From Dokdonia sinensis (GTDB lineage: Bacteria > Bacteroidota > Bacteroidia > Flavobacteriales > Flavobacteriaceae), in the NCBI RefSeq assembly GCF_003688895.1, contig NZ_REFV01000007.1:1-64000 (forward strand): a stretch of 64,000 nt of DNA. Reading direction: 5' to 3'. The notes beneath the pieces were generated by a model. It searched no databases. It was not told where the DNA came from and worked only from the letters and a program-made list of their open reading frames with translations. A program made the translations under genes and the position numbers. Positions 2,671-64,000 of this stretch are shown here, piece after piece; within the stretch, counting starts at the first letter, position 1; each line of letters opens with the position of its first letter.

Positions 2671-5600
2671 AGGACTTGACTTAGTGGATGACACAGCTAC
2701 AACGCCAGAAGATTTCCCAGTTAACATCGATGTGCTGGATAATGATACTTTTGATCCTGGGGCTACAGTAATAGTTTCGGAGGTTACAGATCCTATTAAT
2801 GGAACGGTAACGATTGAAGCAGATGGCACGGTAACCTATACTCCAGATCCAGATTTCAATGGAACTGATACTTTTGATTATACTGTAATTGTCACTAATC
2901 CTGATGGAACAACAACAACTGGAACTGCAACTGTAGTGGTTACGGTTACACCATTAGACGATATAGATGATGATGTTGCGACTACAGATGAAGATACCCC
3001 AGTGGATATCGATGTGTTAGAGAACGATGATTATGCAGGAACTTATGGAACAGACTTCGAAATTACCGAAGTATCTGATCCTGCAAATGGAACGGTAACT
3101 ATCGGACCTGACGGTACGCTTACCTATATCCCAGCAGATGACTTTAACGGTACAGATACGTTTACGTATACTGTAACGGTAACGAATCCTGATGGAACAA
3201 CTACTACAGAAACAGCTACAGTAACCGTGGGAGTTAATCCTATTGCAGATGTTGTGGACGATGCAGACAGCACACCTGAGGATACACCTGTAACGGTTGA
3301 TGTTCTGGCAAACGATACGTTTGAAGGAACGATGAACGAAGTGACTGATGTAACTGATCCTGCAAATGGAACAGTAACAATCAATGCTGACGGTACGGTA
3401 ACGTATACTCCAGATACTGGATTTACCGGAACTGATACGTTTGATTATACGGTAACGGTGACGAACCCAAATGGTTCTACTACTACAGAAACAGCCACGG
3501 TTGTTATCACGGTGACTGGTGCATTAGGTGCTCCAGATGTTGCTACTACAGATGAAGATACCCCTGTTGATATCGATGTGTTGGCAAACGATGGTTATAC
3601 AGGAACTTATGGAACAGACTTCGAAATTACAGAAGTATCTGATCCTGCAAATGGAACGGTAACTATCGGACCTGATGGTACGCTTACCTATATCCCTGCA
3701 GATGACTTTAACGGTACAGATACGTTTACATATACTGTAACGGTAACGAATCCTGATGGAAGTACATCTACAGAGACTACGACAGTAACCGTGGGAGTTA
3801 ATCCTATTGCAGATGTTGTGGATGATGCAGACAGTACACCTGAGGATACACCTGTAACGGTTGATGTTCTGGCAAACGATACGTTCGAAGGAACGATGAA
3901 CGAAGTGACTGATGTGACTGATCCTGCGAATGGAACTGTAACAATCAATGCGGACGGTACGGTAACGTATACTCCAGATACTGGATTCACGGGAACTGAT
4001 ACGTTTGATTACACGGTAACGGTAACGAACCCAGATGGTTCTACTACTACAGAAATAGCAACGGTTGTTATTACAGTAACAGGCGATCAAGGAGTTCCAG
4101 ATGTTGCAACAACAGATGAAGATACCCCTGTTGATATCGATGTGTTGGCAAACGATGGTTATACAGGAACTTATGGAACAGACTTCGAAATTACAGAAGT
4201 ATCTGATCCTGCAAATGGAACGGTAACTATCGGACCTGATGGAGTTCTTACATACATACCTGCGGATGACTTCAACGGAACGGATACTTTTACATATACC
4301 GTAACGGTAACTAACCCTGACGGTAGTACGTCTACAGAGACAACTACAGTTACAGTGGGAGTTACTCCTATTGCAGATGTTGTGGATGATGCAGCCAGTA
4401 CTCCTGAGGATACACCTGTAACGGTCGATGTACTTGCTAACGATACCTTCGAAGGAACGATGAACGAGGTCACCGATGTTACCGATCCAGCCAATGGAAC
4501 GGTGACGATCAACAATGACGGCACTGTGACCTATACTCCAGATGCTGGATTTACAGGCACAGATACCTTTGACTATACTGTAACGGTAACCAATCCTGAC
4601 GGTTCTACTACAACGGAGACCGCCACTGTTATTATTACAGTTACGGGAGCGCCTACTGGAACGGTTGAGGGTCATATTTATAATGATCTCAACGGTAACG
4701 GAACTCAGGATGCAGGCGAGCCAGACTTAGCGGGTGTAGACGTAGAAATAACAGATGCAAACGGAAATACTCAAACTGTTACTACAGATGCAAACGGAGA
4801 TTATACTGCAACGGTAGTAATTGGAGATGCCATTGTAGATATTGTAGAAGCTACGCTTCCGGCTGGAGCTGATCAAACGGAAGGGACGGATCCTACTACG
4901 GTAACTGTTACTGAAAATACTGTGACGTTTGAAGAGAACAATGGTTATACGATAGCAGATCCAATGTTAGACATAGAGAAGCTAAGCGTATACAATGTTG
5001 GGACTGGAGTCATAACTTATACCTATAATGTAGTTAATACAGGAAATGTAACGGTCTTTGATATTGCTATACTAGAGGATGCTACCATATTTACGGGAAC
5101 AGGAACACTTCCTGCTCCAGTATATCAATCTGGGGGTAGTGACGAGGATGGAGAAGGTGATGCTCTGGATATTTTACCAGGAGAAACGATAACATTTACT
5201 GCGACATACAATGTAACACAGGATGATATTGATGCTGGTACAATCGAGAATCAAGCAAGTGCTACAGGTGAAGATGAAGATGGTAATCCACAGTCGGATG
5301 TTTCAGATGACGGAGATGATACTGACGGTAATACGGAGGATGATGTGACAGTTACAGATGTAAGTGCTATGGCGCAGCTTACTTTCGCGAAAGCGTCATC
5401 ATCTACAGGAAATAATGTAGGAGATATCATCACGTACACATTTGAAGTGACTAACACTGGACTTGTGACTGTAGATAATATCACAATAGATGATCCTGTA
5501 TTAGGAATTACTGATTTACCAGTTACTCCATCATCATTGATGCCAGGTGAAGTGGGAACAGCAACAGCTACGTACACAATTACGCAGGCAGATGTTGATG

Positions 5601-7231
5601 CAGGTGAGGTCGTAAACTCTGCAACGGCGACTGGACAAGATCCTGATGGTAATGATGTGACAGATGTTTCGGATTCTGGTAATCCTGCAGATGATACGGG
5701 AGCTGGAGATGATGAAACTGTTACTACTATTACATCTAATCCTGAGCTCACTTTCGTGAAAACGTCTCAAGCATTAGGAACAGAGGTAGGTGACATTATT
5801 GTATATACGTTTACAGTAACGAATACAGGAAATGTTACGATTGCTAACATAACAGTGAGCGATCCTATCGTAGGGGTGACAAACTTGCCTATATCGCCAG
5901 ACACATTAGCTTCTGGAGAAACTGGAACAGCAATGGTTAACTATACCATTACTCAGGCTGATGTGGATCTTGGTTTTGTAGTTAATACTGCAACAACAAG
6001 CGGAACAGATCCTGATGGCAACCCTGTAGATGATACATCTGATTCCGGAAACCCAGGAGATGACACAGGTGCAGATGATGACGAAACAGTAACATCTCTT
6101 TCACCTAATCCTAATCTGGATTTACGTAAAACGGGTGTGGCTGTGGATATAAATGGCAATGGAATTATAGATGCAGGAGATGAGATTCAGTATACGTTTA
6201 CCATAAGAAATAATGGTAATGTTACTGTAACAGGTATTACAATAAATGATCCAATCTTAACGGTTGTAGGTGGACCTATTGATCTAGATCCAGGACAAAC
6301 AGATGCTACCACATTTACTGGGGTGTATACTATTATGCAAGCAGATGTTGAAGCGGGACAAGTATTAAATCAAGCTACGGCTTTAGGTACAGATCCTAGC
6401 GGAGTGTCGGTATCTGACGTATCTGACGATCCGAGTGATGATACTAATGTTGATGCGGATAGCGATGGTGATTTTGAAGATCCAACGATAGTTCCTATTG
6501 AAATTATCACAAACTTGGATCTCTTAAAAACAGCTACAGCTATTGACGTAAACGCAGACGGCTTAATTACTGCAGGAGATCAAATTCAATACGTATTTAG
6601 CGTTACGAATAATGGTAATGTTGGAGTATTTGGTATTGTAATAGGAGATCCTATTATTACAGTTGTTGGGGCACCTATTGACCTCCAACCTAGTGAAACA
6701 GATAGTACTACTTTTACAGCTCTTTACACGATAACAGCATTAGATCAAGAAAATGGATCTGTGATAAACTCTGCTACAGCAGAAGGGGTTAGCGTTATGG
6801 GAGTAGATGTTGTTGATATTTCTGATGACCCTAATGATCTAACTAATGTGGATCTTGATAATGATGGTGATTTTGAGGATCCTACAATTGTGTTGCTTGA
6901 TAGTGATGTTCCAATAGATGGGGGTAATACAATTGAAATTCCAAATGGAGTTTCTCCTAACGGAGATGGTATGAATGACACTTGGATAATACCGCTTCTG
7001 GATCGCTTCCCTAATAATACGGTCCGTTTATTTAACCGTTGGGGAGTTGAAGTTTATGGGGTAGACGGATATGGGCAAAATGGAAATACATTCCGTGGAT
7101 TCTCAGAAGGACGAGCAACCATAAGTCAAGATGAGATGCTGCCTGTAGGTACTTATTATTACGTGATTGAATACGTTAATAATGAGAACAAGACTATTCA
7201 TAGAGCAGGATATATCTATTTAACACGATAA
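2..7231 (+). CDS. Giant repeat adhesin with T9SS type B C-terminal domain (5' partial)
   Basis: A surface adhesin, probably exported by the type IX system and anchored or moved at the outer membrane, as SprB-class proteins are. The frame is open from base 2, so the ATG at 14 is only internal. In order: about 17 cadherin/Ig-like repeats of the 'DEDTPV..DVL.ND' type (to about 4.65 kb), one SdrD-B-like domain (about 4.66-4.97 kb), five DUF11-like repeats with 'TNTGNVTV' cores (about 4.97-6.89 kb), and a gliding-associated CHU_C domain (about 6.94 kb to the stop) with 'NGVSPNGDGMND' and 'LFNRWG'. The first ten repeats are 267 bp each and almost identical in DNA. Asp-rich loops such as 'DINGNGIIDAGD' suggest calcium binding. 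The SprF- and PorE-like genes follow directly. The domain calls are strong; the ligand is unknown. Confidence 0.93.
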   Translation, partial: TPDAMDDTATTDEDEPVTIDVLDNDGLGSEPTTVTDVTDPANGTVTINADGTITYTPDPDFNGTDTFEYTITDDDGNTSTATVTVVVVSTPDAVDDTASTNEDTPVDIAVLDNDDLGTEPTTITDVTDPANGTVTINGDGTVTYTPDPDFSGTDTFEYTITDDNGNTSTATVDVTITATPDAEDDTATTDEDTPVDISVLDNDDLGTEPTTITDVTDPANGTVTINADGTITYTPDPDFNGTDTFEYTITDDDGNTSTATVTVVVVSTPDAVDDTASTNENTPVDIAVLDNDDLGTEPTTITDVTDPANGTVTINGDGTVTYTPDPDFSGTDTFEYTITDDNGNTSTATVDVTITATPDAEDDTATTDEDTPVDISVLDNDDLGTEPTTITDVTDPANGTVTINADGTITYTPDPDFNGTDTFEYTITDDDGNTSTATVTVVVVSTPDAVDDTASTNEDTPVDIAVLDNDDLGTEPTTITDVTDPANGTVTINGDGTVTYTPDMDFNGTDTFEYTITDDNGNTSTATVTVVISDTPDAMDDTATTDEDEPVTIDVLDNDGLGSEPTTVTDVTDPANGTVTINADGTVTYTPDMDFNGTDTFEYTITDDNGNTSTATVTVVISDTPDAMDDTASTNEDTPVDIAVLDNDDLGTEPTTITDVTDPANGTVTINGDGTVTYTPDMDFNGTDTFEYTITDDNGNTSTATVTVVISDTPDAMDDTATTDEDEPVTIDVLDNDGLGSEPTTVTDVTDPANGTVTINADGTITYTPDPDFNGTDTFEYTITDDDGNTSTATVTVVVVSTPDAVDDTASTNEDTSVDIAVLDNDDLGTEPTTITDVTDPANGTVTINGDGTVTYTPDMDFNGTDTFEYTITDDNGNTSTATVTIIVDAGLDLVDDTATTPEDFPVNIDVLDNDTFDPGATVIVSEVTDPINGTVTIEADGTVTYTPDPDFNGTDTFDYTVIVTNPDGTTTTGTATVVVTVTPLDDIDDDVATTDEDTPVDIDVLENDDYAGTYGTDFEITEVSDPANGTVTIGPDGTLTYIPADDFNGTDTFTYTVTVTNPDGTTTTETATVTVGVNPIADVVDDADSTPEDTPVTVDVLANDTFEGTMNEVTDVTDPANGTVTINADGTVTYTPDTGFTGTDTFDYTVTVTNPNGSTTTETATVVITVTGALGAPDVATTDEDTPVDIDVLANDGYTGTYGTDFEITEVSDPANGTVTIGPDGTLTYIPADDFNGTDTFTYTVTVTNPDGSTSTETTTVTVGVNPIADVVDDADSTPEDTPVTVDVLANDTFEGTMNEVTDVTDPANGTVTINADGTVTYTPDTGFTGTDTFDYTVTVTNPDGSTTTEIATVVITVTGDQGVPDVATTDEDTPVDIDVLANDGYTGTYGTDFEITEVSDPANGTVTIGPDGVLTYIPADDFNGTDTFTYTVTVTNPDGSTSTETTTVTVGVTPIADVVDDAASTPEDTPVTVDVLANDTFEGTMNEVTDVTDPANGTVTINNDGTVTYTPDAGFTGTDTFDYTVTVTNPDGSTTTETATVIITVTGAPTGTVEGHIYNDLNGNGTQDAGEPDLAGVDVEITDANGNTQTVTTDANGDYTATVVIGDAIVDIVEATLPAGADQTEGTDPTTVTVTENTVTFEENNGYTIADPMLDIEKLSVYNVGTGVITYTYNVVNTGNVTVFDIAILEDATIFTGTGTLPAPVYQSGGSDEDGEGDALDILPGETITFTATYNVTQDDIDAGTIENQASATGEDEDGNPQSDVSDDGDDTDGNTEDDVTVTDVSAMAQLTFAKASSSTGNNVGDIITYTFEVTNTGLVTVDNITIDDPVLGITDLPVTPSSLMPGEVGTATATYTITQADVDAGEVVNSATATGQDPDGNDVTDVSDSGNPADDTGAGDDETVTTITSNPELTFVKTSQALGTEVGDIIVYTFTVTNTGNVTIANITVSDPIVGVTNLPISPDTLASGETGTAMVNYTITQADVDLGFVVNTATTSGTDPDGNPVDDTSDSGNPGDDTGADDDETVTSLSPNPNLDLRKTGVAVDINGNGIIDAGDEIQYTFTIRNNGNVTVTGITINDPILTVVGGPIDLDPGQTDATTFTGVYTIMQADVEAGQVLNQATALGTDPSGVSVSDVSDDPSDDTNVDADSDGDFEDPTIVPIEIITNLDLLKTATAIDVNADGLITAGDQIQYVFSVTNNGNVGVFGIVIGDPIITVVGAPIDLQPSETDSTTFTALYTITALDQENGSVINSATAEGVSVMGVDVVDISDDPNDLTNVDLDNDGDFEDPTIVLLDSDVPIDGGNTIEIPNGVSPNGDGMNDTWIIPLLDRFPNNTVRLFNRWGVEVYGVDGYGQNGNTFRGFSEGRATISQDEMLPVGTYYYVIEYVNNENKTIHRAGYIYLTR
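5380..5395. repeat. Palindrome copy, 2 mismatches, inside the adhesin gene
   Basis: TACTTTCGCGAAAGCG (12-bp perfect core 5382-5393), read as 'TFAKAS'. The equivalent site in the next DUF11-like repeat (5756-5769) reads CTTTCGTGAAAACG, so the palindrome is not fixed by the repeat structure. Confidence 0.85.
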
Positions 7232-7273: not shown

Positions 7274-7285
7274 AAACAAGACAAT

Positions 7286-10286: not shown

Positions 10287-10306
10287 TGCGTAAATGTTTA
10301 GGAGGC

Positions 10307-10322
10307 CGCTTTCGCGAAAGCG
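10307..10322. repeat. CGCTTTCGCGAAAGCG palindrome, exact, intergenic
   Basis: Exact 16-bp copy between the terminator of the PorE-like gene and the BlaI operator region. Confidence 0.97.
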
Positions 10323-10361
10323 TAAAAAGCACCATTTATAACCACGCAATTAAAATTTATA

Positions 10362-10783: not shown

Positions 10784-12193
10784 ATGGGACAGTATATTAT
10801 AGAGGTGCTCTGCTTTCAAGCTATTTTCCTGGCGGTTTATCTTACATTTTTTAGAAAAGAAACATTTTTTCAGTGGAACCGGGGCTACCTCCTCCTTACA
10901 CCATTACTTTCTATGTTGCTTCCTTTTGTTTCGATCGCCGCATTTCGGGCAGCAGTCCCCTCGGGAGAATTTGCAACACTGCTACCAGAGATTTTTATAG
11001 GCTCTGGTCCAGATACTGGTATCGATTTAGGAACGGAGGCTGGTGGATTTGGAATTAATTGGTTGCTTATTTATAGTCTTGGTGTCTTGGGTGCGCTCGT
11101 GTTTTTCGGCAGTAAATTGTGGAGGCTTACCCAATATTTTAAGTACAGAACGGGTGGAGAAAAGATTATTCAGATTCCAGAAAGCAGTGCGGCATTTACA
11201 TTCCTCAACCATATTTTTATAGGGGAGGAGGTAGAACCGATTTCGCGAAAGCGTATTCTTGCCCACGAACACATTCACGTAAAGCAACGCCATACTTGGG
11301 ATCTGTTGTATTTTGAAATTTTGCGTGTGATATTTTGGTTCAATCCATTCATTTATATATTCCAAAAGGAGATTACCATCGTACACGAATATCTTGCAGA
11401 TGCCGAAGCTGTGCGCGATACCTCAAAAGAAGAATATTTTACACAGTTGCTCAATGCCACATTTGGCACCCAGCAGCTCTCATTTATAAATTCATTTTTT
11501 AATCATTCATTCATCAAAAACCGAATCATTATGTTACAGAAATCAAAATCAAAAAAAATCGCCATTGCAAAGTACGCACTCATCCTCCCGATGATTGTCG
11601 GAATGTTGTTTTATGTTTCCTGCTCTGAGGATAGTCAAGTAGAAAAGACAGAAACCTCTATAGAAACGCAGTTGGCAGACCTTAAATTGGCATTAGAAGA
11701 CAGAGAAAGTTTATCTGATGCAGAAACAGAACAGCTCCAAGCAATACTAAGGCAAGCTGAGAATAAGAATGCTTCAGATGTTGAAATCATTGAAGTTGTC
11801 GAAGTCCAAGAAGTGGATGATTTTGACCCTAATCTCGATATTCCTTTCGCCGTTATCGACAATGTTCCTGTGTTTCCGGGCTGTGAAAGCGCAGGAGATA
11901 ATACGGCCAGAAAGAAATGTATGTCTGAGTCTATTTCTAAAATGGTAAACCGTAGTTTTAATACAAAGCTAGGGTCTGATCTCGGTTTATCGGGAATTAA
12001 TAGAATCTTTGTCCAGTTTAAGATAGACAAAAATGGAAATGTCACAAACGTTCAGTCCAGAGCACCACATCCAGAATTAGAGACAGAAGCAGAGCGCGTC
12101 ATAAAACTATTGCCACAAATGAAGCCAGGATTACAAAAGGGAAAAGAAGTAGGTGTTCTTTATTCGTTACCTATTACTTTTAAGGTAGAGTAA
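10784..12193 (+). CDS. BlaR1-like M56 membrane metallopeptidase with TonB-like C-terminus
   Basis: 469 residues. Membrane helices lie at about 5-20, 35-50, 90-110 and 265-282. The M56 zinc motif HEHIH is at about 161-165 ('LAHEHIHVKQRHTWDLLYFE'), with 'VHEYLADAEAV' as the third zinc ligand region. After the last helix come a possible lipobox-like 'FYVSCSE', an acidic linker, and a TonB-C-like domain ('VPVFPGCE...INRIFVQFKIDKNGNVTNVQ'). Bacteroidota often replace the penicillin-binding sensor of BlaR1 with such a domain. A copy of the dispersed palindrome encodes 'ISRKR' just before the active site. It partners the BlaI gene upstream; the ligand is unknown. Confidence 0.92.
   Translation: MGQYIIEVLCFQAIFLAVYLTFFRKETFFQWNRGYLLLTPLLSMLLPFVSIAAFRAAVPSGEFATLLPEIFIGSGPDTGIDLGTEAGGFGINWLLIYSLGVLGALVFFGSKLWRLTQYFKYRTGGEKIIQIPESSAAFTFLNHIFIGEEVEPISRKRILAHEHIHVKQRHTWDLLYFEILRVIFWFNPFIYIFQKEITIVHEYLADAEAVRDTSKEEYFTQLLNATFGTQQLSFINSFFNHSFIKNRIIMLQKSKSKKIAIAKYALILPMIVGMLFYVSCSEDSQVEKTETSIETQLADLKLALEDRESLSDAETEQLQAILRQAENKNASDVEIIEVVEVQEVDDFDPNLDIPFAVIDNVPVFPGCESAGDNTARKKCMSESISKMVNRSFNTKLGSDLGLSGINRIFVQFKIDKNGNVTNVQSRAPHPELETEAERVIKLLPQMKPGLQKGKEVGVLYSLPITFKVE
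11238..11253. repeat. Palindrome copy, 1 mismatch, inside the M56 gene
   Basis: CGATTTCGCGAAAGCG, read in the 'ISRKR' frame, about 7 bp before the codons of the zinc-binding AHEHIH motif. Confidence 0.93.
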
Positions 12194-12196: not shown

Positions 12197-13399
12197 ATGA
12201 GATATATTTTCATAATTCTTTTTGGGCTTATTATTTACAAAGCCGAGGCGCAGTCCTCGGCTTTGCGCGTGGCAGACAGTCTTGCGGCGGTAGGTAATCA
12301 TTCTAAAGCTATTGCCACATACTCAGATATTGGGATTATGAATGCACCGGTAGCCCTTAAAATTGCCAGATCTTACAAGGCATTGGGCAATGATAGTAAA
12401 GCATTACAATATTACCAGTCTTCTTTAGAACAGGACAAGACTCAAGTTATCGCAGCTACAGAGTACGGGCGCCTCCTCATTGCTACTCGAAAATTTAAAA
12501 AGGGCGATAGCATATTTAACAGCCTGTCGGAGAGATATCCTGGCAATCCAGAGTTTTACTACCAGCGAGGGAGAGCGCTTAAGGCTATGGGGCCGCAGAT
12601 TGCGGTTACAAATAGTGATACTATATGGAACTGGAGTGATGACGCTTTCGCGAAAGCGTTAAAAGCAGATTCTACACACCTCAAAGCAATGTATGAAATC
12701 GGGTTGGGGTATGTAAAAAACAGAACATACGACAAGCTGGAAAAGCTCGCGCCAAAAGGCCTAGCCATAGATCCAGAAAACATTGAATTATTAAGTCTAC
12801 TTGCTCAGAGTTACTCAAATAAAGGTTGGTACTCAGAGGCTATAGATTATTTTGAAAAACTTATAGACCTCGGTCAGTCCACACCTTTTATTCATCGTAA
12901 GCTTGGATTTGCTTATGCAAAAGATGGATTTCCGCAGCTTGCAATAGAGCAGTATGCGATTCTCATAAATGAAAAAGGGGAAGATAAAAATCCCGAACAC
13001 CATCTCGCACTTGCAAGATTATACCAACGTACTAAGGATTTAGATAAGGGCATTCGTCACGCAGAGATTGCACTGTTCTTAATGGACCAACCACTGGAAG
13101 ACCCCTATTTTACACTAGCAACGTTGCATAAACTTAAAGAAGAGTATCAGCTCGCATTAGAAAACTACCAGTTTGCAGTCCGGGAGAACCCTAAAAATAT
13201 TGCTGCACATTATGGAATAGCCGTTGCGGCAGATAATTTTTATAAGGATAAAAAGGAAGTCTTGAGACTTTATGAGCGATTTATAGAACTATTTAAGGAA
13301 GATAACCGCCGTCAGGCAAAATACTATAGAGATTTAGCGCAGTACCGTGTCGATATTTTGACCCAAGAAGTATTTATGAAAGCAGACAAGGGTGGATAA
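12197..13399 (+). CDS. Secreted tetratricopeptide repeat protein
   Basis: 400 residues with a signal peptide ('YIFIILFGLIIYKAEAQ'). The rest is TPR helices: 'ALRVADSLAAVGNHSKAIATYSDI', 'ALKIARSYKALGNDSKALQYYQSSL', 'AQSYSNKGWYSEAIDYFEKLI' and others to the C-terminus. It starts 3 bp after the M56 stop and is clearly part of that operon. A periplasmic or outer-membrane scaffold role is likely, but the partner is unknown. The dispersed palindrome encodes 'DAFAKALKAD', which fits a TPR helix without obvious disruption. Confidence 0.9.
   Translation: MRYIFIILFGLIIYKAEAQSSALRVADSLAAVGNHSKAIATYSDIGIMNAPVALKIARSYKALGNDSKALQYYQSSLEQDKTQVIAATEYGRLLIATRKFKKGDSIFNSLSERYPGNPEFYYQRGRALKAMGPQIAVTNSDTIWNWSDDAFAKALKADSTHLKAMYEIGLGYVKNRTYDKLEKLAPKGLAIDPENIELLSLLAQSYSNKGWYSEAIDYFEKLIDLGQSTPFIHRKLGFAYAKDGFPQLAIEQYAILINEKGEDKNPEHHLALARLYQRTKDLDKGIRHAEIALFLMDQPLEDPYFTLATLHKLKEEYQLALENYQFAVRENPKNIAAHYGIAVAADNFYKDKKEVLRLYERFIELFKEDNRRQAKYYRDLAQYRVDILTQEVFMKADKGG
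12643..12658. repeat. Palindrome copy, exact, inside the TPR gene
   Basis: Exact 16-mer (18-bp palindrome with its flanks, 12642-12659), read in the 'AFAKA' frame. Confidence 0.97.
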
Positions 13400-14993: not shown

Positions 14994-16172
14994 CTATTGT
15001 TTGAATTGCCTTCCCTTCCAGCGATACGTTCCGGTAAACGCGCGCATCGCAACATAAACACTTACAAACGGATAGAGCAGTGCCACTATAGGGTATGCGG
15101 TGAAGTCTCGTCTTGAATCTGTAAAGATTAAGCCTTTCCAGATCAAAATGGCGTCTATGATGAACTTCCAAAATATAATGAATAGTAATGTGGGTAATTC
15201 CGCTTTCGCGAAAGCAAAACCACTACCCATCAAAAGAACCTGATTGAGTAGAGTTATAAAAAGTCCTAAAACAACAAATACCGATGTAAGATTCGTCCAA
15301 AATACTAAAACTCCCACCACCTTAGGGAACACTGCCGAATATCCCGTAGCCTTTGCGGCCCAGCGCACCCGTTGAGAAATGAACCCGCCCCAATCCGTCT
15401 GCGCCGAAGTTTTAACAAGAACATCACGATGCTTTAGGTACATCACTTTCTGCGGAAAAGCTTTAAGAAATTTTTCAAGTATAAAAATATCATCACCACT
15501 CGCAATGTGGTCATTACCATCAAAACCGTTTACAGCTAGGAATGATACCTTTCGGTAACACAAGTTTGCACCATTTGCCATAAATGGTTTCCCTAACCCA
15601 AACGCACCTATGGTTGCGCCTAGCAAACTGTGAATATCAAGACTTTCAAAAGCATAGAGAAAACCAGAAGTCTTGGGTGTTGCTAACGTTACAGGAGCGG
15701 CAATAAGCTCTGGATGATGCGCTTGAATAAAACTGTCAGATGATAGCAACCACGTCGCTGGAACGAGACAATCTGCATCCGTAGTGAGTATCCATTCGTT
15801 TTGAGCACAGTGTATTGCCGTTCTAATAGCATCTTTTTTAGGTGAGGCAGACGTTCGAATATTTTCTAAAAGATGTATGTTGTTAAACTTTTGATTTGCA
15901 ATAAAATCAAGCACCGTTTGCGACGAGGTATCTTCTGAGCTATCATTTACCAAAAATATTTCATATAGTTCCCGAGGGTACTGCAGTTGAGAAAGACTTT
16001 GCAAAAGTGCTGGTAAATGCACTGCTTCATTACGAAAAGCGATAATAATACTAAAACAAGATTTGGGGGATTTCGCAGGTATCGGTACTATGGGTGTTCG
16101 ATTAAAACCAATAATAAAAAACAGTAAAAGAAGCGTGTAGATCCCTATTATGATATGGAGATAGAGTATCAT
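14994..16172 (-). CDS. Membrane glycosyltransferase, family 2
   Basis: 392 residues. An N-terminal membrane helix is followed by a GT-A domain with 'FSIIIAFRNEAVHLPALLQSL', 'LVNDSSEDTS', the DxD region 'LTTDADCLVP', the acceptor-site region 'ASGDDIFILEKF' and 'QRVRWAAKA' (QxxRW), then three or four C-terminal membrane helices. It transfers a sugar from a nucleotide donor to a lipid or cell-wall acceptor at the inner membrane. Its start overlaps the stop of the upstream flippase-like gene by 4 bp, so the two are translationally coupled. The dispersed palindrome encodes 'FAFAKAEL' in a C-terminal loop. The sugar is not predictable. Confidence 0.9.
   Translation of the reverse strand: MILYLHIIIGIYTLLLLFFIIGFNRTPIVPIPAKSPKSCFSIIIAFRNEAVHLPALLQSLSQLQYPRELYEIFLVNDSSEDTSSQTVLDFIANQKFNNIHLLENIRTSASPKKDAIRTAIHCAQNEWILTTDADCLVPATWLLSSDSFIQAHHPELIAAPVTLATPKTSGFLYAFESLDIHSLLGATIGAFGLGKPFMANGANLCYRKVSFLAVNGFDGNDHIASGDDIFILEKFLKAFPQKVMYLKHRDVLVKTSAQTDWGGFISQRVRWAAKATGYSAVFPKVVGVLVFWTNLTSVFVVLGLFITLLNQVLLMGSGFAFAKAELPTLLFIIFWKFIIDAILIWKGLIFTDSRRDFTAYPIVALLYPFVSVYVAMRAFTGTYRWKGRQFKQ
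15201..15216. repeat. Palindrome copy, 1 mismatch, inside the glycosyltransferase gene
   Basis: CGCTTTCGCGAAAGCA, read on the minus strand in the 'AFAKA' frame. Confidence 0.95.
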
Positions 16173-17907: not shown

Positions 17908-19066
17908 GGCCTCCATCTACATCCACATACCGTTCTGCAAGCAGGCGTGCCACTATTGTGACTTTCACTTTTCCACCTCCATGGGAAAGAAGGAAGCGAT
18001 GCTGGAAGCGATCTCAAAAGAGATTAAAATGCGTGCTCCCGAGTTCAAAAAAGAAACGGTTTCGAATATTTATTTTGGAGGAGGAACGCCGTCTGTGTTA
18101 GAGACTGGTGAGATAGATGCTCTTATCGATGCCTGTTACAACTATTATAACATCCAGGAGAGTCCAGAGATAACGCTGGAGGCAAATCCAGACGACCTCA
18201 CGGAGGAAAAGATAGAAGCTTTGGCGGCTTCACAGATCAATAGGTTGAGTATTGGTGTACAGTCTTTTTTTGAAGAAGATCTAAAGCTTATGAATCGGGC
18301 ACATAATGCTCGGGAGGCGGTGGATTGTATTACGCTTTCGCGAAAGCGGTTCAAAAACATTTCTCTAGACCTCATTTATGGGATTCCTGAGATGACAAAT
18401 GCTCGCTGGCTGGAAAATGTGGAAAAAGCGTTGGCCCTCGATGTTCCGCATATATCTGCGTATGCACTTACAGTAGAGCCCAAAACTGCGCTTGAAAATT
18501 TCATAAAAAAGGGTATTATTCCTCCAGTCGAAGATGAGGTGGCTCAGGAGCACCATACGTTGCTTATCGAGAAAATGGAAGCAACGGGATATGAAAACTA
18601 TGAATTTAGCAACTTTGCTTTGCCTGGTTTCTATTCCAGAAACAACACGGCCTACTGGCAGGGAGAGAAGTATATAGGCATAGGACCAAGTGCACACAGT
18701 TACGACGGTGAGCGTCGCGCTTGGAACATCAACAACAATCCTAGATACATTAAAGCAATTACTGCCAGCGAGCTACCTCAAGAGGTGGAAGTCTTGTCGC
18801 TTACAGATAGGTATAATGAGTATGTAATGACACGATTGCGCACGCAACAAGGACTGTCATTGGTTGAGATTGCCGAGAGTTTTGGCGAAAAATTCCAGGG
18901 CTACCTTCTGTCTCAAGCCCAAAAGCATCTAGAAGAACATTTACTCTTCCTAGACGAAGACCAGCTGGTTGTCACCAAAAAGGGGAAATTCCTAAGTGAT
19001 GGTATCGCTGCAGACTTATTTATGTTGAACTTGTTTCAGCATCCTGATAATGAACATACCAATTAA
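17906..19066 (+). CDS. hemW: HemW-like radical SAM protein (heme chaperone), CTG start
   Basis: 386 residues if translated from CTG at 17906, the normal HemW length. HemW carries an Fe-S cluster and SAM and is thought to insert heme into respiratory proteins. The cluster motif 'CKQACHYC' and the start 'ASIYIHIPFC' lie upstream of the first ATG (17981), so an ATG-started protein would lack the cluster. An in-frame TAA at 17900 leaves CTG as the only plausible start, aligned where other family members have Met. 'FGGGTPS', 'LEANPDD' and 'NRLSIGVQSF' follow. The palindrome at 18333 encodes 'TLSRKRF'. The last residues ('LNLFQHPDNEHTN') come from a dispersed repeat. Confidence 0.9.
   Translation: MASIYIHIPFCKQACHYCDFHFSTSMGKKEAMLEAISKEIKMRAPEFKKETVSNIYFGGGTPSVLETGEIDALIDACYNYYNIQESPEITLEANPDDLTEEKIEALAASQINRLSIGVQSFFEEDLKLMNRAHNAREAVDCITLSRKRFKNISLDLIYGIPEMTNARWLENVEKALALDVPHISAYALTVEPKTALENFIKKGIIPPVEDEVAQEHHTLLIEKMEATGYENYEFSNFALPGFYSRNNTAYWQGEKYIGIGPSAHSYDGERRAWNINNNPRYIKAITASELPQEVEVLSLTDRYNEYVMTRLRTQQGLSLVEIAESFGEKFQGYLLSQAQKHLEEHLLFLDEDQLVVTKKGKFLSDGIAADLFMLNLFQHPDNEHTN
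18333..18348. repeat. Palindrome copy, exact, inside hemW
   Basis: Exact 16-mer, read in the 'LSRKR' frame. The surrounding protein keeps the length expected of HemW, so it looks like substitution rather than added residues. Confidence 0.96.
19025..19043. repeat. Dispersed GATGCTGAAACAAGTTCA-type repeat at the 3' end of hemW
   Basis: TTGAACTTGTTTCAGCATC is the reverse complement of the repeat found at 19460-19481 and, in part, at 19380-19391 and 19414-19428. It encodes the C-terminal 'LNLFQH' of HemW. Confidence 0.85.
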
Positions 19067-49079: not shown

Positions 49080-49084
49080 CCGCG

Positions 49085-49104
49085 TAATGATACCCTGGGA
49101 TTAA
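49085..49104. repeat. Short repeat shared with 27653-27671
   Basis: TAATGATACCCTGGGATTAA, one base longer than the copy at 27653. It lies just after the PBP stop. Confidence 0.7.
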
Positions 49105-49178
49105 ATTTAATGAGGCTTGCTTCTGGATGAAATCTATATTCGATGATCGCTTAATATTAGGAAAAGCGGCACGCTTTT

Positions 49179-49811
49179 ATGACAACCATTTCCATACACA
49201 ACAATACGTTTAGACTACAGCCTACGGGCACAATGTTTTGGGAAGAGCGAGCAATGCTTCTCATTGCAGATGTGCATTTGGGAAAAGTAGCTCATTTTAG
49301 AAAGCACGGGAGTGCCGTTCCTCAAGAAGCTATTTCAAAGAACTTTGAACAATTGGACACAGCAATTGACTGTTGTGAGGCAAAGGAAATTTGTTTTCTC
49401 GGCGACCTTTTTCATTCCACTCTTAATACAGAGTGGTTGCATTTTGAACAATGGGTACAGCGTCAGGAGACAGAACTTTCACTCGTCATAGGAAACCACG
49501 ATATTATATCGCCGTTGCGCTTTGAGAAGCTTGGTATTACATTATATGAGGAGCGTATTCTAGAAAGCTTCTTACTCACGCATCATCCCGAGGAACGAGA
49601 AAATCTGTTTAATTTTTGTGGTCATATACACCCAGGCGTTCGACTTAAGGGTATGGGGAGGCAAATTCTCAAGATGCCTTGCTTTTTTAAGAAGCCTAGT
49701 CAGATGATATTACCGGCATTTGGAGAATTTACAGGGAATTACATGCTAGAGCCAAAGGATGGAGATGAGATTTTTGTCGTGACCCCAGATGAGGTAATTC
49801 TTGTGGAATAG
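49179..49811 (+). CDS. pdeM: Ligase-associated DNA damage response endonuclease PdeM-like
   Basis: 210 residues of the calcineurin-like phosphoesterase fold: 'LLIADVHLGKVAHFRKHGSAVP', 'ICFLGDLFHSTLNTEWLHFE', 'LVIGNHD', 'LTHHPEERENLFNFCGHIHPGV'. The sequence fits PdeM, the nuclease that often travels with a DNA ligase and Lhr-type helicase; those partners are not adjacent here. Alone in its unit, ending just before a palindrome copy. Confidence 0.92.
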   Translation: MTTISIHNNTFRLQPTGTMFWEERAMLLIADVHLGKVAHFRKHGSAVPQEAISKNFEQLDTAIDCCEAKEICFLGDLFHSTLNTEWLHFEQWVQRQETELSLVIGNHDIISPLRFEKLGITLYEERILESFLLTHHPEERENLFNFCGHIHPGVRLKGMGRQILKMPCFFKKPSQMILPAFGEFTGNYMLEPKDGDEIFVVTPDEVILVE

Positions 49812-49823
49812 GTTTTTTTCTTA

Positions 49824-49839
49824 CGCTTTCGCGAAAGCG
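49824..49839. repeat. Palindrome copy, exact, intergenic
   Basis: Exact 16-mer 13 bp after the pdeM stop, followed later by the promoter of the decarboxylase gene. Confidence 0.97.
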
Positions 49840-49891
49840 GAATCCCCACAACACAACACCTTCATTATTTTTAATGGTCTGAGCAATAGTC

Positions 49892-49899
49892 TACCTTTG
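49892..49899 (+). promoter_or_regulatory. -7 element of the decarboxylase promoter
   Basis: TACCTTTG matches TAnnTTTG, 18 bp before the start codons ATGATG. No clear -33 element. Confidence 0.55.
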
Positions 49900-49916
49900 T
49901 CATTCCCTAAAAGAGA

Positions 49917-51347
49917 ATGATGAATAAAGACACTTTAGAGCTCTCTGCCGAAGAAATGAGAAGCTACGGCTACAGTATTGTAGATACGGTTGTAGAGCAT
50001 TTTCATACGCAACGAGAAAAACAGCCCAATGCTTCTGGAACGCGAGAAGAGATGGATACACTCTTTTTAGAAGAAGCTCCAGAAAAATCTTCTGACCCAC
50101 AGGAGGTACTCGATTTTGTGGTGGAAAAAGTGATGAAAAAGAGTGCCATTCCCTCACATCCCAAAGCATTTTCATTTGTGCCGGGACCGAGCAACTATAT
50201 TAGTGCGATGGCAGATACGCTGGCCACTGGATTCAATATTTTTGGCGGAGGCTGGTCGCAATCACCACCTGCAGCTGAGTTAGAAATTGTGACGATAAGT
50301 TGGTTGCTCAAGATTTTTGGTTTTCCTGTAAAAAAGGGAGGTGGGATTTTTACAAGCGGTGGCTCTATGGCAAATCTGACGGCAATCGTTACCGCAAGAC
50401 GAGTAAAATGTGGAGACGATTTCTCTAAGGCGGTTATCTATCTTTCTGACCAAGCGCACTCTTCTAACATTAAGGCGCTACGAATTATTGGATTTCTTAA
50501 AGAGCAAATACGACTCATCCCAACAGATTCTGAGTTCAAATTTTCAACCATAAAGTTAAAAAGTGCCATCGCTAGAGATAGACTGGAAGGCTATCAACCT
50601 TTTTGTGTCATAGCGACAGCGGGAACGACAAACACGGGAACTGTAGACCCGCTGGGAGATATTTCAAAAATCTGTAAGGCAGAGGATCTTTGGTTTCATA
50701 TAGATGGAGCGTACGGTGGCGCGGCCATTCTTGCCAAAAACGGTAAACAGCTCCTCAAAGGCATTTCAAAGGCAGATTCACTCACCGTAGACCCGCACAA
50801 GTGGTTTTTTCAACCGTATGAAATGGGATGCCTCCTCATAAGACATCACAAACACTTAAAGAGCACTTTTGTTGAGAAGCCTGAGTATTTAAGAGATATT
50901 GAGGGTAACGAATCTGAAATCAATTTTTACGACCACGGCGTGCAACTCACCAGACGTTTCCGCGCTTTAAAGTTTTATATATCCATCAAGACTTTTGGCC
51001 TCAAGGCCTTTAGAAACGCCATCACCTACAACATAGAAATCGCCGAAAAAACCGAACGTTTCCTCCGGAAAAGTGCCAAATGGGAAGTGGTTTCTCCTGC
51101 CACGCTCGCTATAATAAACTTTAGATTTAATCCTATAGGGAACAGCTATTCGGAAAAACAACTTGATGCGTTAAATCAAAAAATTTCTGGGGCCGTGATG
51201 GATTCTCGAGAGGCACAACTGGTCACCACGGTGCTCAACGGGCAGGTGGTGTTGCGTATGTGCTTGATAAATCCGCGCACGACGTTTCAGGATGTGAAGG
51301 ATACTTTGGCTTTGTGCGAGCGTTTTGCTTCAGAGATAGAGGGTTGA
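49917..51347 (+). CDS. PLP-dependent group II decarboxylase
   Basis: 476 residues of the aromatic-amino-acid/glutamate decarboxylase family. 'FTSGGSMANLTAIVTAR' is the PLP phosphate site, 'WFHIDGAYGGAAILAKNG' holds the PLP-nitrogen Asp, and 'SLTVDPHKWFFQPYEMGCLLIR' the Schiff-base Lys. The substrate (aromatic amino acid, 2,4-diaminobutyrate or other) cannot be read from sequence. Two consecutive ATG codons start the frame. No transporter or pathway partner is adjacent. Confidence 0.93.
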   Translation: MMNKDTLELSAEEMRSYGYSIVDTVVEHFHTQREKQPNASGTREEMDTLFLEEAPEKSSDPQEVLDFVVEKVMKKSAIPSHPKAFSFVPGPSNYISAMADTLATGFNIFGGGWSQSPPAAELEIVTISWLLKIFGFPVKKGGGIFTSGGSMANLTAIVTARRVKCGDDFSKAVIYLSDQAHSSNIKALRIIGFLKEQIRLIPTDSEFKFSTIKLKSAIARDRLEGYQPFCVIATAGTTNTGTVDPLGDISKICKAEDLWFHIDGAYGGAAILAKNGKQLLKGISKADSLTVDPHKWFFQPYEMGCLLIRHHKHLKSTFVEKPEYLRDIEGNESEINFYDHGVQLTRRFRALKFYISIKTFGLKAFRNAITYNIEIAEKTERFLRKSAKWEVVSPATLAIINFRFNPIGNSYSEKQLDALNQKISGAVMDSREAQLVTTVLNGQVVLRMCLINPRTTFQDVKDTLALCERFASEIEG

Positions 51348-51374
51348 GCTGTAAATTCTTAGGATAATTTTGGG

Positions 51375-51394
51375 TACGCTTTCGCGAAAGCGTA
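51375..51394. repeat. Palindrome copy extended to 20 bp, intergenic
   Basis: The exact 16-mer (51377-51392) is flanked by TA on both sides in inverted form (TACGC..GCGTA). It lies 28 bp after the decarboxylase stop and 28 bp before the TspO-like start. Confidence 0.97.
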
Positions 51395-51422
51395 ATTACC
51401 TTTATATAAAATTTTGGGCATT

Positions 51423-55751: not shown

Positions 55752-57437
55752 TTAACCTCTAGGAATAGCTCCTATTAATTTTTCAGTATAGCCACTTTGA
55801 GGATTAGCATAAATAGCATCTGCCTCTCCCAGTTCCTCTATTTTTCCAGATTGCATAACCACTAGTTGGTCTGCCATATATTTTACCACAGCAAGATCGT
55901 GTGAAATAAAGATGTATGTAAAATTGTACCCTTCTTTAAGTTCATTAAGAAGATTTAAAACCTGCGCCTGTACTGAGATATCCAGCGCACTCACAGACTC
56001 ATCACAAATTATCAGTTTAGGTTGCACAGCAATAGTACGGGCAATGCCTATGCGCTGTCTCTGCCCTCCACTAAACTCGTGAGGATATCTATTATAATGC
56101 TCACGTTCTAATCCTACCCGTTCTAGCAATTCCATCACTTTTTCTTTGCGTTCAGGTTTAGAGCCATATAGCTTATGAACGTCCATAGGTTCTATAATCG
56201 CCTGCCCAACCGTTAAACGAGGATTAAGAGAGGCAAATGGATCTTGAAAGATAATTTGGATTTCCCGACGTAAGTTTCGCAATGCCTTCCCTTTGAGCTT
56301 CGTGATGTCTATTCCTTTATATAAGATGCTTCCTTTAGTTGCTGGATCAAGTTGCAATATGGCCTTGCCCAATGTTGATTTGCCACATCCGGACTCTCCC
56401 ACTAGACCTAAAGTTTCGCCCTCATAAAGTTTAAATGAAACATCGTCCACAGCTCTTACAGCTTTGTTTTTTGCAAATAGACCACTACTTGAGAAATAGG
56501 TCTTCTCCACATTAACAACTTCAAGTAGTGGTTTTTGGGCGTATATATCCTTATGTTTCCTTGACCTTTGATCTGTCGTAATAACTTCGGTTTTTGGAGT
56601 TCCGTTTAAAAAATCTGAAATCGTAGGTAATACCTTTAACCTGCTATCTAAAGAGGGTCTGGCACTTAAAAGCGCCTTTGTATACTGGTGTTTAGGGGTT
56701 TGGAATATCGCTTTCGCGAAAGCGGACTCCACAATCTCACCTTGATACATTACCATTACCCTGTCTGCAATCTCACGTACTAGTGCAAGATCGTGCGAAA
56801 TGAAAATCACACTCATTCCCGTCTCCTGCTGAAGTTCCTTTAAAAGTAAAATAATTTCTTTCTGAACAGTCACATCAAGAGCAGTCGTGGGCTCATCTGC
56901 AATGAGGATATCAGGTTTGCAGGCAATGGCCATCGCAATCATCACGCGCTGTTTCTGTCCCCCACTAATCTCGTGCGGGTAAGTATTAAAAATTTCTTCT
57001 GGTCTCGGGAGTTTAACCTTATTAAATAGCGTAATGGTTTCTTCTTTTGCCCTCGCACGGGAGACATCTGTATGTTGCAGGAGAATCTCCGTCACTTGTG
57101 CTCCACATTTCATAGAAGGATTAAGCGAGCTCATAGGCTCCTGAAAAATCATCGAAATTTTGTTCCCACGTATTTTTCTAAATTCCTTTTCTGAGAATGT
57201 TGAAAGTTCTTGATCGTTAAAATCGATATCACCAGAAATCACCGCTTTCTTTTTAGGTAAAAGGCTTAAAATGGCTAGTGTTGATATGGATTTTCCCGAT
57301 CCCGACTCCCCAACGATAGCGAGAATCTCATTCTTATTTAATTCAAAATCAATACCGTGCACAACGGTATGATATTTACCCTGACGTTCAAATTGAATTT
57401 TGAGATTTTTTACGGTAAGAATAGTTTCGTCTTTCAC
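55752..57437 (-). CDS. Peptide-type ABC transporter, fused double ATP-binding protein
   Basis: 561 residues with two ATPase domains in one chain, as in YejF and similar oligopeptide/dipeptide transporters. Domain 1 (about 1-260): 'GESGSGKSIST', 'EISGGQKQRVMIA', 'LIADEPTTALD'. Domain 2 (about 305-561): 'GESGCGKSTLGKA', 'EFSGGQRQRIGIA', 'LIICDESVSALD'. It would power a peptide or nickel permease in the inner membrane; the permease genes are not adjacent. The palindrome encodes 'SAFAKAIF' near residue 238, in the linker after the first domain. Confidence 0.95.
   Translation of the reverse strand: MKDETILTVKNLKIQFERQGKYHTVVHGIDFELNKNEILAIVGESGSGKSISTLAILSLLPKKKAVISGDIDFNDQELSTFSEKEFRKIRGNKISMIFQEPMSSLNPSMKCGAQVTEILLQHTDVSRARAKEETITLFNKVKLPRPEEIFNTYPHEISGGQKQRVMIAMAIACKPDILIADEPTTALDVTVQKEIILLLKELQQETGMSVIFISHDLALVREIADRVMVMYQGEIVESAFAKAIFQTPKHQYTKALLSARPSLDSRLKVLPTISDFLNGTPKTEVITTDQRSRKHKDIYAQKPLLEVVNVEKTYFSSSGLFAKNKAVRAVDDVSFKLYEGETLGLVGESGCGKSTLGKAILQLDPATKGSILYKGIDITKLKGKALRNLRREIQIIFQDPFASLNPRLTVGQAIIEPMDVHKLYGSKPERKEKVMELLERVGLEREHYNRYPHEFSGGQRQRIGIARTIAVQPKLIICDESVSALDISVQAQVLNLLNELKEGYNFTYIFISHDLAVVKYMADQLVVMQSGKIEELGEADAIYANPQSGYTEKLIGAIPRG
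56709..56724. repeat. Palindrome copy, exact, inside the ABC gene
   Basis: Exact 16-mer, read on the minus strand in the 'AFAKA' frame, in the linker between the two ATPase domains. Confidence 0.97.
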
Positions 57438-61933: not shown

Positions 61934-62647
61934 TTAAACAGATAAGATTTCGTGTTCCTCGAGAATAGGTTCATTGCGCAAGCGCAATAAGATTTGAGCT
62001 ACTGCAACAGTGTCCTTCTCACAATAAATGATAATTCTATCGATGTCTTTGTCTTCGTAAAAGACCTTTCTTACTTGGCTACCGTCTATATCATCTTTAG
62101 GTGAAGGAATTCCTAAAATTTTGGTCATTAATTTGAGCGAAGTATAATGTTTATAGTCACCAAACTTCCACAAATCCAGCGTATCAATATGTGGGATCTC
62201 CCAAGGTTTCTTGCCAAAAAGATTAAGCTTTATGGGTAAGGATATCCCATTTATGACCATTCTTCTTGCGATGTACGGGAAGTCAAACTCTTTACCATTA
62301 TGCGCACACAACAAGTGGTTGCGATGGTTAAAATGAGTCTCCAGTAGATTTTTAAATTCTTGGAGCAACGAGCGTTCTTCTCCGTGATAAGAAGTTGTTC
62401 TAAAACTCCTACCATCACCACCATTTGTAAAGTATCCTACAGAGATACAGACTATTTTCCCAAACTCCGCCCAGATTCCAGCACGCTCATAATAATCTTC
62501 TGGCGTAAATTCATCTTTGCGCAGGTATTTAGTTTTATCTGCGTACAATTGTTTTTCCGTATCGTCCAGCGCATCAAATTGTTCGTGCTGAGGTACGGTC
62601 TCTATATCGAGAAATAATATATTCTCAAGTTGTAGTCGGTCTATCAT
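61934..62647 (-). CDS. 3'-5' exonuclease, PolB-like (DnaQ-fold)
   Basis: 237 residues. The RNase H-like exonuclease motifs are 'ILFLDIETVPQ' (Exo I), 'LLCAHNGKEFDFPYIARRM' (Exo II) and 'IIYCEKDTVAVAQILLRL' (Exo III). It fits the group predicted from the proofreading domain of DNA polymerase B (PF10108). Its stop lies 16 bp before the small membrane protein, and its start overlaps the DUF4153 stop by 4 bp. Confidence 0.9.
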   Translation of the reverse strand: MIDRLQLENILFLDIETVPQHEQFDALDDTEKQLYADKTKYLRKDEFTPEDYYERAGIWAEFGKIVCISVGYFTNGGDGRSFRTTSYHGEERSLLQEFKNLLETHFNHRNHLLCAHNGKEFDFPYIARRMVINGISLPIKLNLFGKKPWEIPHIDTLDLWKFGDYKHYTSLKLMTKILGIPSPKDDIDGSQVRKVFYEDKDIDRIIIYCEKDTVAVAQILLRLRNEPILEEHEILSV

Positions 62648-64000
62648 TTATTGAGTTTAAAAAGTACCATAACGTTACAATATGCCACTTGAAATTGAGT
62701 GTCCTCCTTTACGAGTTCTAGTTGTTTGAAATAAACTTTTACAGCGATACTGTCATTGTTTCCTGTGGCATAAATAAGCTCACTATCAAACGAACCATTA
62801 TTACCCCCGTTCTTACGCAACTCAGCCGTTACGGTGTCTAATGAGATACTAAGGACCTGCTCTTGATCTTTTGTGACTTGAATAGCATTGGAATTTTCTT
62901 CTAATGAAAAGCGATACCCTTGTATGATGTTTTCTGGATTATTATGTCGCTGTTGCTTATTGAGATACAAGTCCTTTATATAATCGTATCCAGAAACCAC
63001 GTATGCATTTGCCTCGTCATTATAGTAGGCTAGTCGCTCTGGATTTTGGTTATAAAGAGAGATTTTCAGTCCCAAACTGTCTAAAATCTTATCTCCCATA
63101 TTCCAACTTCTAGCATCAGGAAACGCTACTTTGGGGTTGTATCCTAAAGTGCTTTCGGTTTTATCTAATGTATTTCGGTCAGAGAGATATCTTGTTATGG
63201 AAACAAAGCGATCAGCGGTTTCACGAGATAATGTGGTGGAGTCCGCTTTCGCGAAAGCGTTATAAACCTCCTCAAACTGCTCCAGCTGACTGCGCTCCGA
63301 AACCGAAAACGCTCCCCAAAATCCAAAAGAACCCACCATTGCCATCACCGCCAAAGCCATAGGTAAAAATCGCAACTGTTGCTTCCTGCTGAAAATTAAG
63401 TAAAGCGTCGCTCCTGTGATAAAAACGGCTATGAGTACTAGAAAATATCGCGCCTCTGTCACACCATAATCCGCAATCCGCCTGTATATGGCAACGTAAA
63501 ATAGAAATAATAACGGGAGCATCGCCCAGTAAAACGCTGGTTGAAATTTCCGAATGAGTCGTGATGAATGACTCAGTCGCACAGGATGAATGATAATCTG
63601 AATGATAAAAAGTAAGGTCGCAAGCGCAATAATAAGGTAGCTTACCCAGCCCTTTGGCAATTCCCAAAGCGCCAAAATTTTAATAGCATAAGCATACAAA
63701 ATAACAACATAAAGTCCCGCCAGCGGGATCAAAATAAACTTTACAAAAACCTCAACAGGCTTATGAAATTCCATCCGAATATCGTGCTGGATTTCTTTTG
63801 GAAAATCGGACAGGTAAACCCAAGTGTTTACAATCCCCAAACAAATAATAAAGAGTTGAAAATAACGTATCCCGTCTATATCTATTTCAAACAGAAACTG
63901 TACAGCGAGCATCGCCAGTACAAGTCCCAAATATAATACACCAGAAAATAGAGCGCTCCGAGCAATCGCAATAATAATATTACTTAGGTAATTCCAGTAC
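62644..64000 (-). CDS. DUF4153 membrane protein (5' partial)
   Basis: At least 450 residues; the frame is open to the window edge ('YWNYLSNIIIAIARSALFSGVLYLGLVL' precedes the listed part), so the start lies outside. Seven or more hydrophobic helices fill the N-terminal two thirds, then a soluble domain ('FEEVYNAFAKADSTTLSRETADRF' onward). DUF4153 proteins are common and uncharacterised. The palindrome encodes 'NAFAKADS' just after the last membrane helix. Confidence 0.85.
   Translation of the reverse strand, partial: YWNYLSNIIIAIARSALFSGVLYLGLVLAMLAVQFLFEIDIDGIRYFQLFIICLGIVNTWVYLSDFPKEIQHDIRMEFHKPVEVFVKFILIPLAGLYVVILYAYAIKILALWELPKGWVSYLIIALATLLFIIQIIIHPVRLSHSSRLIRKFQPAFYWAMLPLLFLFYVAIYRRIADYGVTEARYFLVLIAVFITGATLYLIFSRKQQLRFLPMALAVMAMVGSFGFWGAFSVSERSQLEQFEEVYNAFAKADSTTLSRETADRFVSITRYLSDRNTLDKTESTLGYNPKVAFPDARSWNMGDKILDSLGLKISLYNQNPERLAYYNDEANAYVVSGYDYIKDLYLNKQQRHNNPENIIQGYRFSLEENSNAIQVTKDQEQVLSISLDTVTAELRKNGGNNGSFDSELIYATGNNDSIAVKVYFKQLELVKEDTQFQVAYCNVMVLFKLNK
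63244..63259. repeat. Palindrome copy, exact, inside the DUF4153 gene
   Basis: Exact 16-mer, read on the minus strand in the 'AFAKA' frame. Confidence 0.97.

Follow-up and report, generated by a model that had tools for sequence, protein, structure and literature searches.

The 64,000-nucleotide window analysed here (positions 1 to 64,000 of contig NZ_REFV01000007.1, Dokdonia sinensis, assembly GCF_003688895.1) carries a 16-bp palindrome that recurs from 5380 to 63259, both inside open reading frames (ORFs) and between them. The first-pass annotation of the window had listed 17 copies, and all of them lie where it placed them: 12 are exact, two have one mismatch (11238 and 15201) and three have two mismatches (5380, 36528 and 40786). 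Shuffled versions of the window held 0.01 sites on average and never more than 1. Two more degenerate sites, at 24719 and 34025, each with two mismatches to the 14-mer core GCTTTCGCGAAAGC and with strong flanking arms, were missing from that list, as were the arms themselves, with which the site measures about 52 bp (a palindromic core plus an arm of about 17 nt per half). Overall, the element is a clade-specific, chromosome-wide and evenly spaced signal of about 52 bp, composed of two inverted, independently read half-sites. The sites of the window are given below with no strand assigned to them; a minus strand, where stated, is that of the ORF.

5380-5395: 16-mer with two mismatches (14-mer with one), within the large cadherin/Ig-like ORF 14-7231, which encodes a repetitive surface protein of 2405 residues bearing a type IX secretion C-terminal domain
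10307-10322: exact, between ORFs (10232/10422); with arms 10289-10340
11238-11253: one mismatch, within the M56 peptidase/TonB ORF 10784-12193
12643-12658: exact, within the TPR ORF 12197-13399; with arms 12625-12676
15201-15216: 16-mer with one mismatch, 14-mer exact, within the glycosyltransferase ORF 14994-16172 (minus strand)
18333-18348: exact, within the HemN/HemW-like radical SAM ORF 17981-19066; with arms 18315-18366
21520-21535: exact, within the AAA_33 ORF 21242-21736; with arms 21502-21553
24719-24734: degenerate (14-mer with two mismatches), strong arms, within ORF 24268-27582
28467-28482: exact, 4 bp past the end of the TP_methylase ORF 27792-28463; with arms 28449-28500
30756-30771: exact, within the TonB-dependent receptor ORF 28527-30938 (minus strand); with arms 30738-30789
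34025-34040: degenerate (14-mer with two mismatches), strong arms
36528-36543: 16-mer with two mismatches, 14-mer exact, directly after ORF 35640-36518
38365-38380: exact, within the DUF3298/PdaC ORF 37829-38596; with arms 38347-38398
40786-40801: two mismatches, within ORF 40404-41567
46601-46616: exact, within gldH (ORF 46010-46732, GldH_lipo), where it codes for RFRESG
49824-49839: exact, between ORFs (49811/49917); with arms 49806-49857
51377-51392: exact, between ORFs (51347/51414); with arms 51359-51410
56709-56724: exact, within the ABC-transporter ATPase ORF 55752-57437 (minus strand); with arms 56691-56742
63244-63259: exact, within the DUF4153 ORF 62644-63930 (minus strand); with arms 63226-63277

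The spread of the motif beyond the window was borne out on the level of the whole genome. The exact 14-mer occurs 857 times in 3,647,482 bases (43 contigs), i.e., one per 4.26 kb, and its control, the same 14-mer reversed without complementing, does not occur in this genome. A 400-kb stretch of contig C1 held 90 exact 14-mers, 19 with one mismatch and 26 with two, as against 0, 10 and 20, respectively, in three fifth-order Markov simulations of that stretch (1.2 Mb in total), the model having been trained on sequence that itself contained the motif. The first-pass annotation had proposed to drop its claim if the whole-genome count came near the Markov expectation or if the motif were restricted to the window; the count lies far above that expectation and the motif occurs well outside the window, so that neither condition refutes the claim. 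The 135 sites in the 400 kb were spaced evenly, with a coefficient of variation of 0.596 compared to 0.988 for random placement, and none of 2000 random draws was as low. In the complete genomes G016 and G230, each sampled in 20 evenly placed stretches, the mean number of sites per stretch was 5.25 and 2.5 with a variance-to-mean ratio of 0.30 and 0.78, and there was no significant origin-terminus trend (circular p 0.08 and 0.75, respectively). One 20-kb stretch of G230 (C1:1816000-1835999) had an unusually low GC content of 0.395 and no copy of the motif; it was perhaps acquired recently.

The earlier statement that the copies are tied to no gene class or position held in so far as genes and gaps are both occupied, but the density per kb is several-fold higher between genes. 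Among 126 sites with at most one mismatch, 83 fell in ORFs and 43 in the approximately 7.5% of sequence outside them, and a larger set of exact sites comprised 128 wholly coding and 104 located in gaps. The density between genes was 4- to 10-fold that within genes, all these shares being based on crude ORF calls (longest non-overlapping frames) and shifting with the settings. Intergenic sites were found at 1.58 per kb in tandem, 1.21 in convergent and 0.92 in divergent gaps. Coding sites were most often read in the frame giving AFAKA (50), followed by LSRK (21) and RFRES (12).

The anatomy of the site was resolved on 273 Dokdonia sites with at most one mismatch. Outward of the core come C, A and T, beyond which the positions on the 5' side avoid C as far as -19, with the background composition regained at -20. 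On the 5' side of each strand the arms are C-poor and G/T-rich and follow a 3-nt rhythm in fixed register, with G or T (K) enriched at -3/-4, -6/-7, -9/-10 and -12/-13 and dips at -5, -8 and -14. This structure is the same inside and between genes, and the period of three was supported by permutation both in 63 clean intergenic sites (p 0.031) and in 128 coding sites (p 0.0079). Because the same dips appear in both sets, codons are not the cause of the rhythm. The rhythm itself suggests a protein handling DNA in units of three nucleotides. The left and right arms have a symmetric consensus and are statistically independent of each other, the pair excess being near zero at most offsets. They do not base-pair beyond what their composition gives, and the site is therefore not a longer hairpin.

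On an arm score with a maximum of 20, exact Dokdonia sites reached 15.0 and random positions 10.0. The ten arm positions that enter this score had been picked from Dokdonia sites; independent of that choice were the values for Nonlabens (15.5, 31 sites), for G230, a carrier from a sister genus (13.0, 55 sites), and for 156 kb of motif-bearing island stretches in other genera described below (14.8, 21 exact sites), the last equal to clade strength. Eight low-GC viral loci with at least one site scored 13.6 (17 sites, partly from the same phage), and 44 chance core matches in GC-rich viral DNA scored 10.3. Chance cores elsewhere lack the arms and clade sites have them, so the arms are a property of the functional site and do not come with the core sequence as such.

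The 14-mer can be decomposed into two copies of the 9-mer GCTTTCGCG in inverted overlap, sharing the central CGCG. Each half consists of a 9-10-nt core element, (C)GCTTTCGCG, and an arm of C-avoiding G/T triplets, about 17 nt long, lying 5' on the same strand. Outside sites with at most one mismatch, the single 9-mer was found 38 times in 0.98 Mb compared to 2.2 expected. Among sites with two mismatches, both fell on one side in 36 of 49 cases (p 0.0001), and in 47 one-sidedly damaged sites the arm scored 6.8 of 10 on the intact side versus 5.6 on the damaged one (Wilcoxon p 0.004). Many of the single 9-mers and one-sided sites are probably full sites in decay. Compensation between core and arm was looked for and none was seen, mismatched cores having weaker arms. 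Overall, selection or drive acts in one clade on a double-stranded signal of 52 bp whose halves are independent and strand-directed.

The history of single sites was followed in two genes of the window. The gldH site (46601) was exact in all 22 carriers and in none of 8 non-carrier relatives, a retention spanning Nonlabens and Dokdonia although their PBP1A proteins are only about 60% identical. GldH reads RFRESG in all 22 carriers, and QFSEAG, VFNEAG, TFFEDG or SFREAG in the relatives with a readable frame, without indels. The hemW site (18333) was exact and in place in 8 of 21 carriers and decayed or absent elsewhere, with some site nevertheless present in the gene or within 1.5 kb on either side of it in 18 of 21 carriers and in 0 of 8 relatives. 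The retention at gldH set against the turnover at hemW means that single sites can be very old and that density is kept more faithfully than position. Between G016 and the genome of the window (G000), 5 of 8 and 5 of 7 sites that could be compared were exact at a flank identity of 75%; the comparisons with Nonlabens and G230 were few and mixed. Point substitution is what creates and maintains the sites, at the expense of protein sequence. In the hemW gene of G017 (L344), at about gene position 353, the site is interrupted by approximately seven in-frame residues (LSAEQAG), the DNA of which holds another palindrome-like sequence, possibly as a small insertion into the motif. At 49080-49917 of the window, G000 has an ORF (49179-49811) that separates the PBP1A gene from the next site, which in most other Dokdonia genomes comes within about 100 bp of that gene; either a gene was gained or the site moved.

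The distribution of the motif is sharply bounded. Of 59 genomes searched for the 14-mer, all 18 of one genus (g1) contained 369-905 copies, one Nonlabens genome (g11) contained 578 and one genome of g13 had 6, and the remaining 39 had none. The first genus is most likely Dokdonia, judging from the nearest named relatives of the PBP1A protein encoded in the window: a metagenome-assembled genome (MAG) labelled as Cytophagaceae (86%), a Dokdonia MAG (82%) and then Nonlabens (59%). In 397 genomes of the family, counts of the 12-mer CTTTCGCGAAAG were high only in Dokdonia (917 and 933 in the two genomes sampled), in Nonlabens (586, 685 and 627) and in G230 (g210; 445), every other genome having 0-21. 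Across 395 genomes of the phylum, none apart from the own genome exceeded 6 copies of the 14-mer, and 17 stretches of 20 kb from motif-free genera yielded a single one-mismatch copy in total. In a 33-row PBP1A tree, a modestly supported branch (67/73) had the carriers on the same side, and the motif likely had a single origin among them.

The low counts in other genera were often clustered. A pair of motifs 933 bp apart was found again in G118, G127, G141, G200 and G254. Six genomes gave cluster stretches, and the annotation covers five of them (G118, G127, G254, G376 and G029; G141 is the sixth): these stretches code for RND efflux pumps, outer-membrane efflux proteins and heavy-metal P-type ATPases, that of G029 also for a ParB-domain protein. 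We read such clusters as islands transferred from the Dokdonia-Nonlabens clade. The motif may thereby be used as a tracer, clusters elsewhere flagging clade-derived DNA, metal-efflux islands included. Copy numbers of 11-21 for the 12-mer were recorded in G116, G326 (g96), G091 (g71), G184 (g164) and G082 (g62), with 19-21 in g71 and g96; these would be either further islands or what is left where the system has been lost.

In viral DNA, the first scan returned at least 120 stretches and a stricter pattern 17, most of the GC-rich matches of the first scan looking like chance. Some of the viral contigs that hold several sites are phages encoding capsid, tape-measure and integrase proteins. Two Nonlabens phages without an annotated integrase (35.7 kb each, 71 kb together) contained no site with up to two mismatches, compared to about 15 expected in both together at host density. 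Mobile DNA long resident in the clade, such as the islands, carries the imprint of the motif and these two phages lack it, which supports an uptake-like function.

The explanation that we favour, at a probability of roughly 0.35, is that the element would be a self-DNA signal in DNA uptake or recombination, working by analogy with an uptake sequence. A clade-specific factor would take in or recombine site-bearing fragments more efficiently, so that fragments with a site would replace fragments without one; such a drive would place new sites wherever a gap exceeds the usual fragment length and lead to even spacing. With a palindromic site, it would not matter which strand of a fragment is used, and a strand-exchange filament on the incoming strand may be favoured by the G/T arms. 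The density, the even spacing, the ORF share, the lineage restriction and the imprint on mobile DNA all match uptake sequences and in this way support the explanation. The substitutions within conserved proteins such as GldH and the turnover around hemW, where a site is kept nearby, speak for it as well. In Haemophilus influenzae, 65% of the uptake sequences lie in ORFs and an even spacing has been reported by others (PMC1939737). The DNA uptake sequences (DUS) of Neisseria and the uptake signal sequences (USS) of Haemophilus likewise consist of a motif longer than 10 bp, iterated a thousandfold, restricted to a lineage, evenly spaced across genes and the gaps between them, accepted together with the protein changes it brings and conserved in the flanks beyond the core. 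The clade motif differs from both in being a perfect palindrome with symmetric triplet-phased arms and in having no common pilus machinery.

The first-pass annotation had drawn the same analogy, which fits in density, spacing, occupation of genes and gaps and lineage restriction, and leaves the palindrome and the 3-nt-phased G/T arms without explanation. Several further observations weigh against an uptake-like function. ComEC, whose presence in all 15 carriers tested speaks for uptake, was found in all 26 genomes tested, and thus equally in motif-free genera. The pilus platform family T2SSF was found in 6 of 16 carriers (absent in 10) and in 6 of 30 motif-free genomes; because the family is equally patchy in both groups, uptake machinery of the pilus type was rejected and cannot be what the carriers have in common. 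None of the known uptake sequences is a palindrome (PMC1939737). A surface receptor would leave the triplet-phased arms unexplained, and no protein reading the site was identified. The literature search, in which Dokdonia was not covered, found no report of transformation in Nonlabens.

Worded with the anatomy included, our tentative proposal is that two inverted elements overlap to form a site of about 52 bp, and that a modular or filament-forming protein (RecA-like, AAA+ or finger-like), in a role unknown in bacteria, would read each arm three nucleotides per step; recurring every ~4 kb along the whole chromosomes of one clade and imprinted on resident DNA, the site would label self and betray where transferred islands came from. 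Few motifs are iterated along entire chromosomes, and the function of some of them, e.g., the highly iterated palindrome HIP1, is still open. In a full-text literature search covering few subscription journals the 16-mer was not found, and none of the matches to the 10-mer TTTCGCGAAA dealt with such a signal, judging by their listing. Should the motif turn out to act in uptake or recombination, such a signal would have no described precedent in Bacteroidota, as far as that search shows. The signal is long, sharply confined to one marine Bacteroidota group and absent from close relatives, with phased arms as a structural clue; the arms and the confinement make a search for its reader practicable, both experimentally and by comparison.

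The first-pass annotation had named uptake sequences, HIP1 and sites of a chromosome-wide protein as the class in question; the general class was right, and the single candidates are of unequal merit, with the readings as HIP1-type methylation, Noc/ParB site, terminator or repeat element failing or being weak. HIP1 of cyanobacteria (GCGATCGC) is likewise a high-copy palindrome across the genes and gaps of one lineage, and the clade motif might by the same token be a by-product of an orphan methyltransferase acting within the palindrome (e.g., at TCGCGA) together with a repair system rebuilding it. A link of HIP1 with orphan methyltransferases is described in PMC4390886. However, the core here is 14-16 bp with arms instead of 8-10 bp, at one site per 4.3 kb in G000; the C5 methylase family PF00145 was detected in 6 of 15 carriers and the N6/N4 family PF01555 above the cut-off in 2 of 15, so that neither of the two families tested is universal and the earlier suggestion of a methylase found no support. 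Within the core, mutations hit the central C of TTTC more often than most other positions (10 of 38 sites with one mismatch), and the 17-nt arms would be left unexplained. This origin must be regarded as very unlikely. Even more improbable is an ordinary repeat or RNA feature, whether a family of repetitive extragenic palindromes (REP) or miniature inverted-repeat transposable elements (MITE) or a bidirectional transcription terminator. The palindrome is capable of forming a hairpin and is, as aforementioned, denser between genes, but most sites lie in ORFs, where residues were replaced without indels, which led to the rejection of REP/MITE insertion; a terminator or hairpin was rejected on the independence of the arms, whose mutual pairing does not exceed chance, and on the high intergenic density in all gene orientations. 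Rfam gave no match in the window.

A clade-specific chromosome-organising protein is a doubtful candidate with more in its favour: it would bind the palindrome as a dimer, its subunits reading the arms in 3-bp steps, and the sites would organise, anchor or mark the nucleoid. The perfect palindrome agrees with this, as do arms that are symmetric in consensus yet statistically independent, which two subunits predict, the even spacing, the very long retention of single sites (gldH, 22 of 22) and the empty pair of phages. Noc/ParB, MatP and SlmA sites are likewise long and palindromic, but the clade motif departs from them in its hundreds of sites, the lack of an extra ParB gene and the lack of a detected chromosome-scale bias. 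ParB_N matches numbered one in 14 of 15 carriers and two in G011; with no ParB paralogue in those 14, a Noc-like reading was rejected, and the earlier suggestion of a segregation role was weakened by this and by the missing origin-terminus trend in G016 and G230. Moreover, matS, Noc sites and parS are far fewer per genome, and a strict dimer predicts otherwise than the better arm seen on the intact side of damaged sites. A two-way Chi must be regarded as unlikely. Here, each strand would carry a signal of about 10 nt read by AddAB from its 3' side, with the 5'-ward G/T zone loading RecA and the palindrome letting the site act from both directions. The position of the arm 5' on each strand, its G/T richness, 3-nt rhythm and length of ~17 nt are in line with this, and so is the excess of single GCTTTCGCG, some of which are decayed full sites. 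However, known Chi sites are 5-8 nt long and not palindromic, and the motif is much longer, its core being a 14-mer palindrome and its arms running to -19. In an E. coli control, the 20 nt on the 5' side of 47 Chi sites in 200 kb were not enriched in G/T (0.519 compared to 0.515 for 180 NNTGGTGG controls), and thus no local arm was seen. The AddB-type nuclease gene (PF12705) was found in 13 of 13 carriers, but also in 13 of 13 motif-free genomes (26 of 26 overall), so its presence does not discriminate. An alignment of 11 AddB sequences, inspected by eye, had no obvious clade-specific change, and a phmmer search with AddB returned no relative with a solved structure. The motif's density is like that of E. 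coli Chi, which is one per 4.5 kb (PMC5959072). In agreement with a Chi function, RecA takes 3 nt per monomer with six monomers per turn, needs more than five monomers for nucleation and has a preference for TGG repeats; however, neither Chi nor TTG repeats raise its nucleation (PMC3763553), and the latter counts against such a function. In the AddA genes of G016, G003, G009 and G011, the nuclease-domain matches end with one or two in-frame stops, where the match probably runs past the end of the gene.

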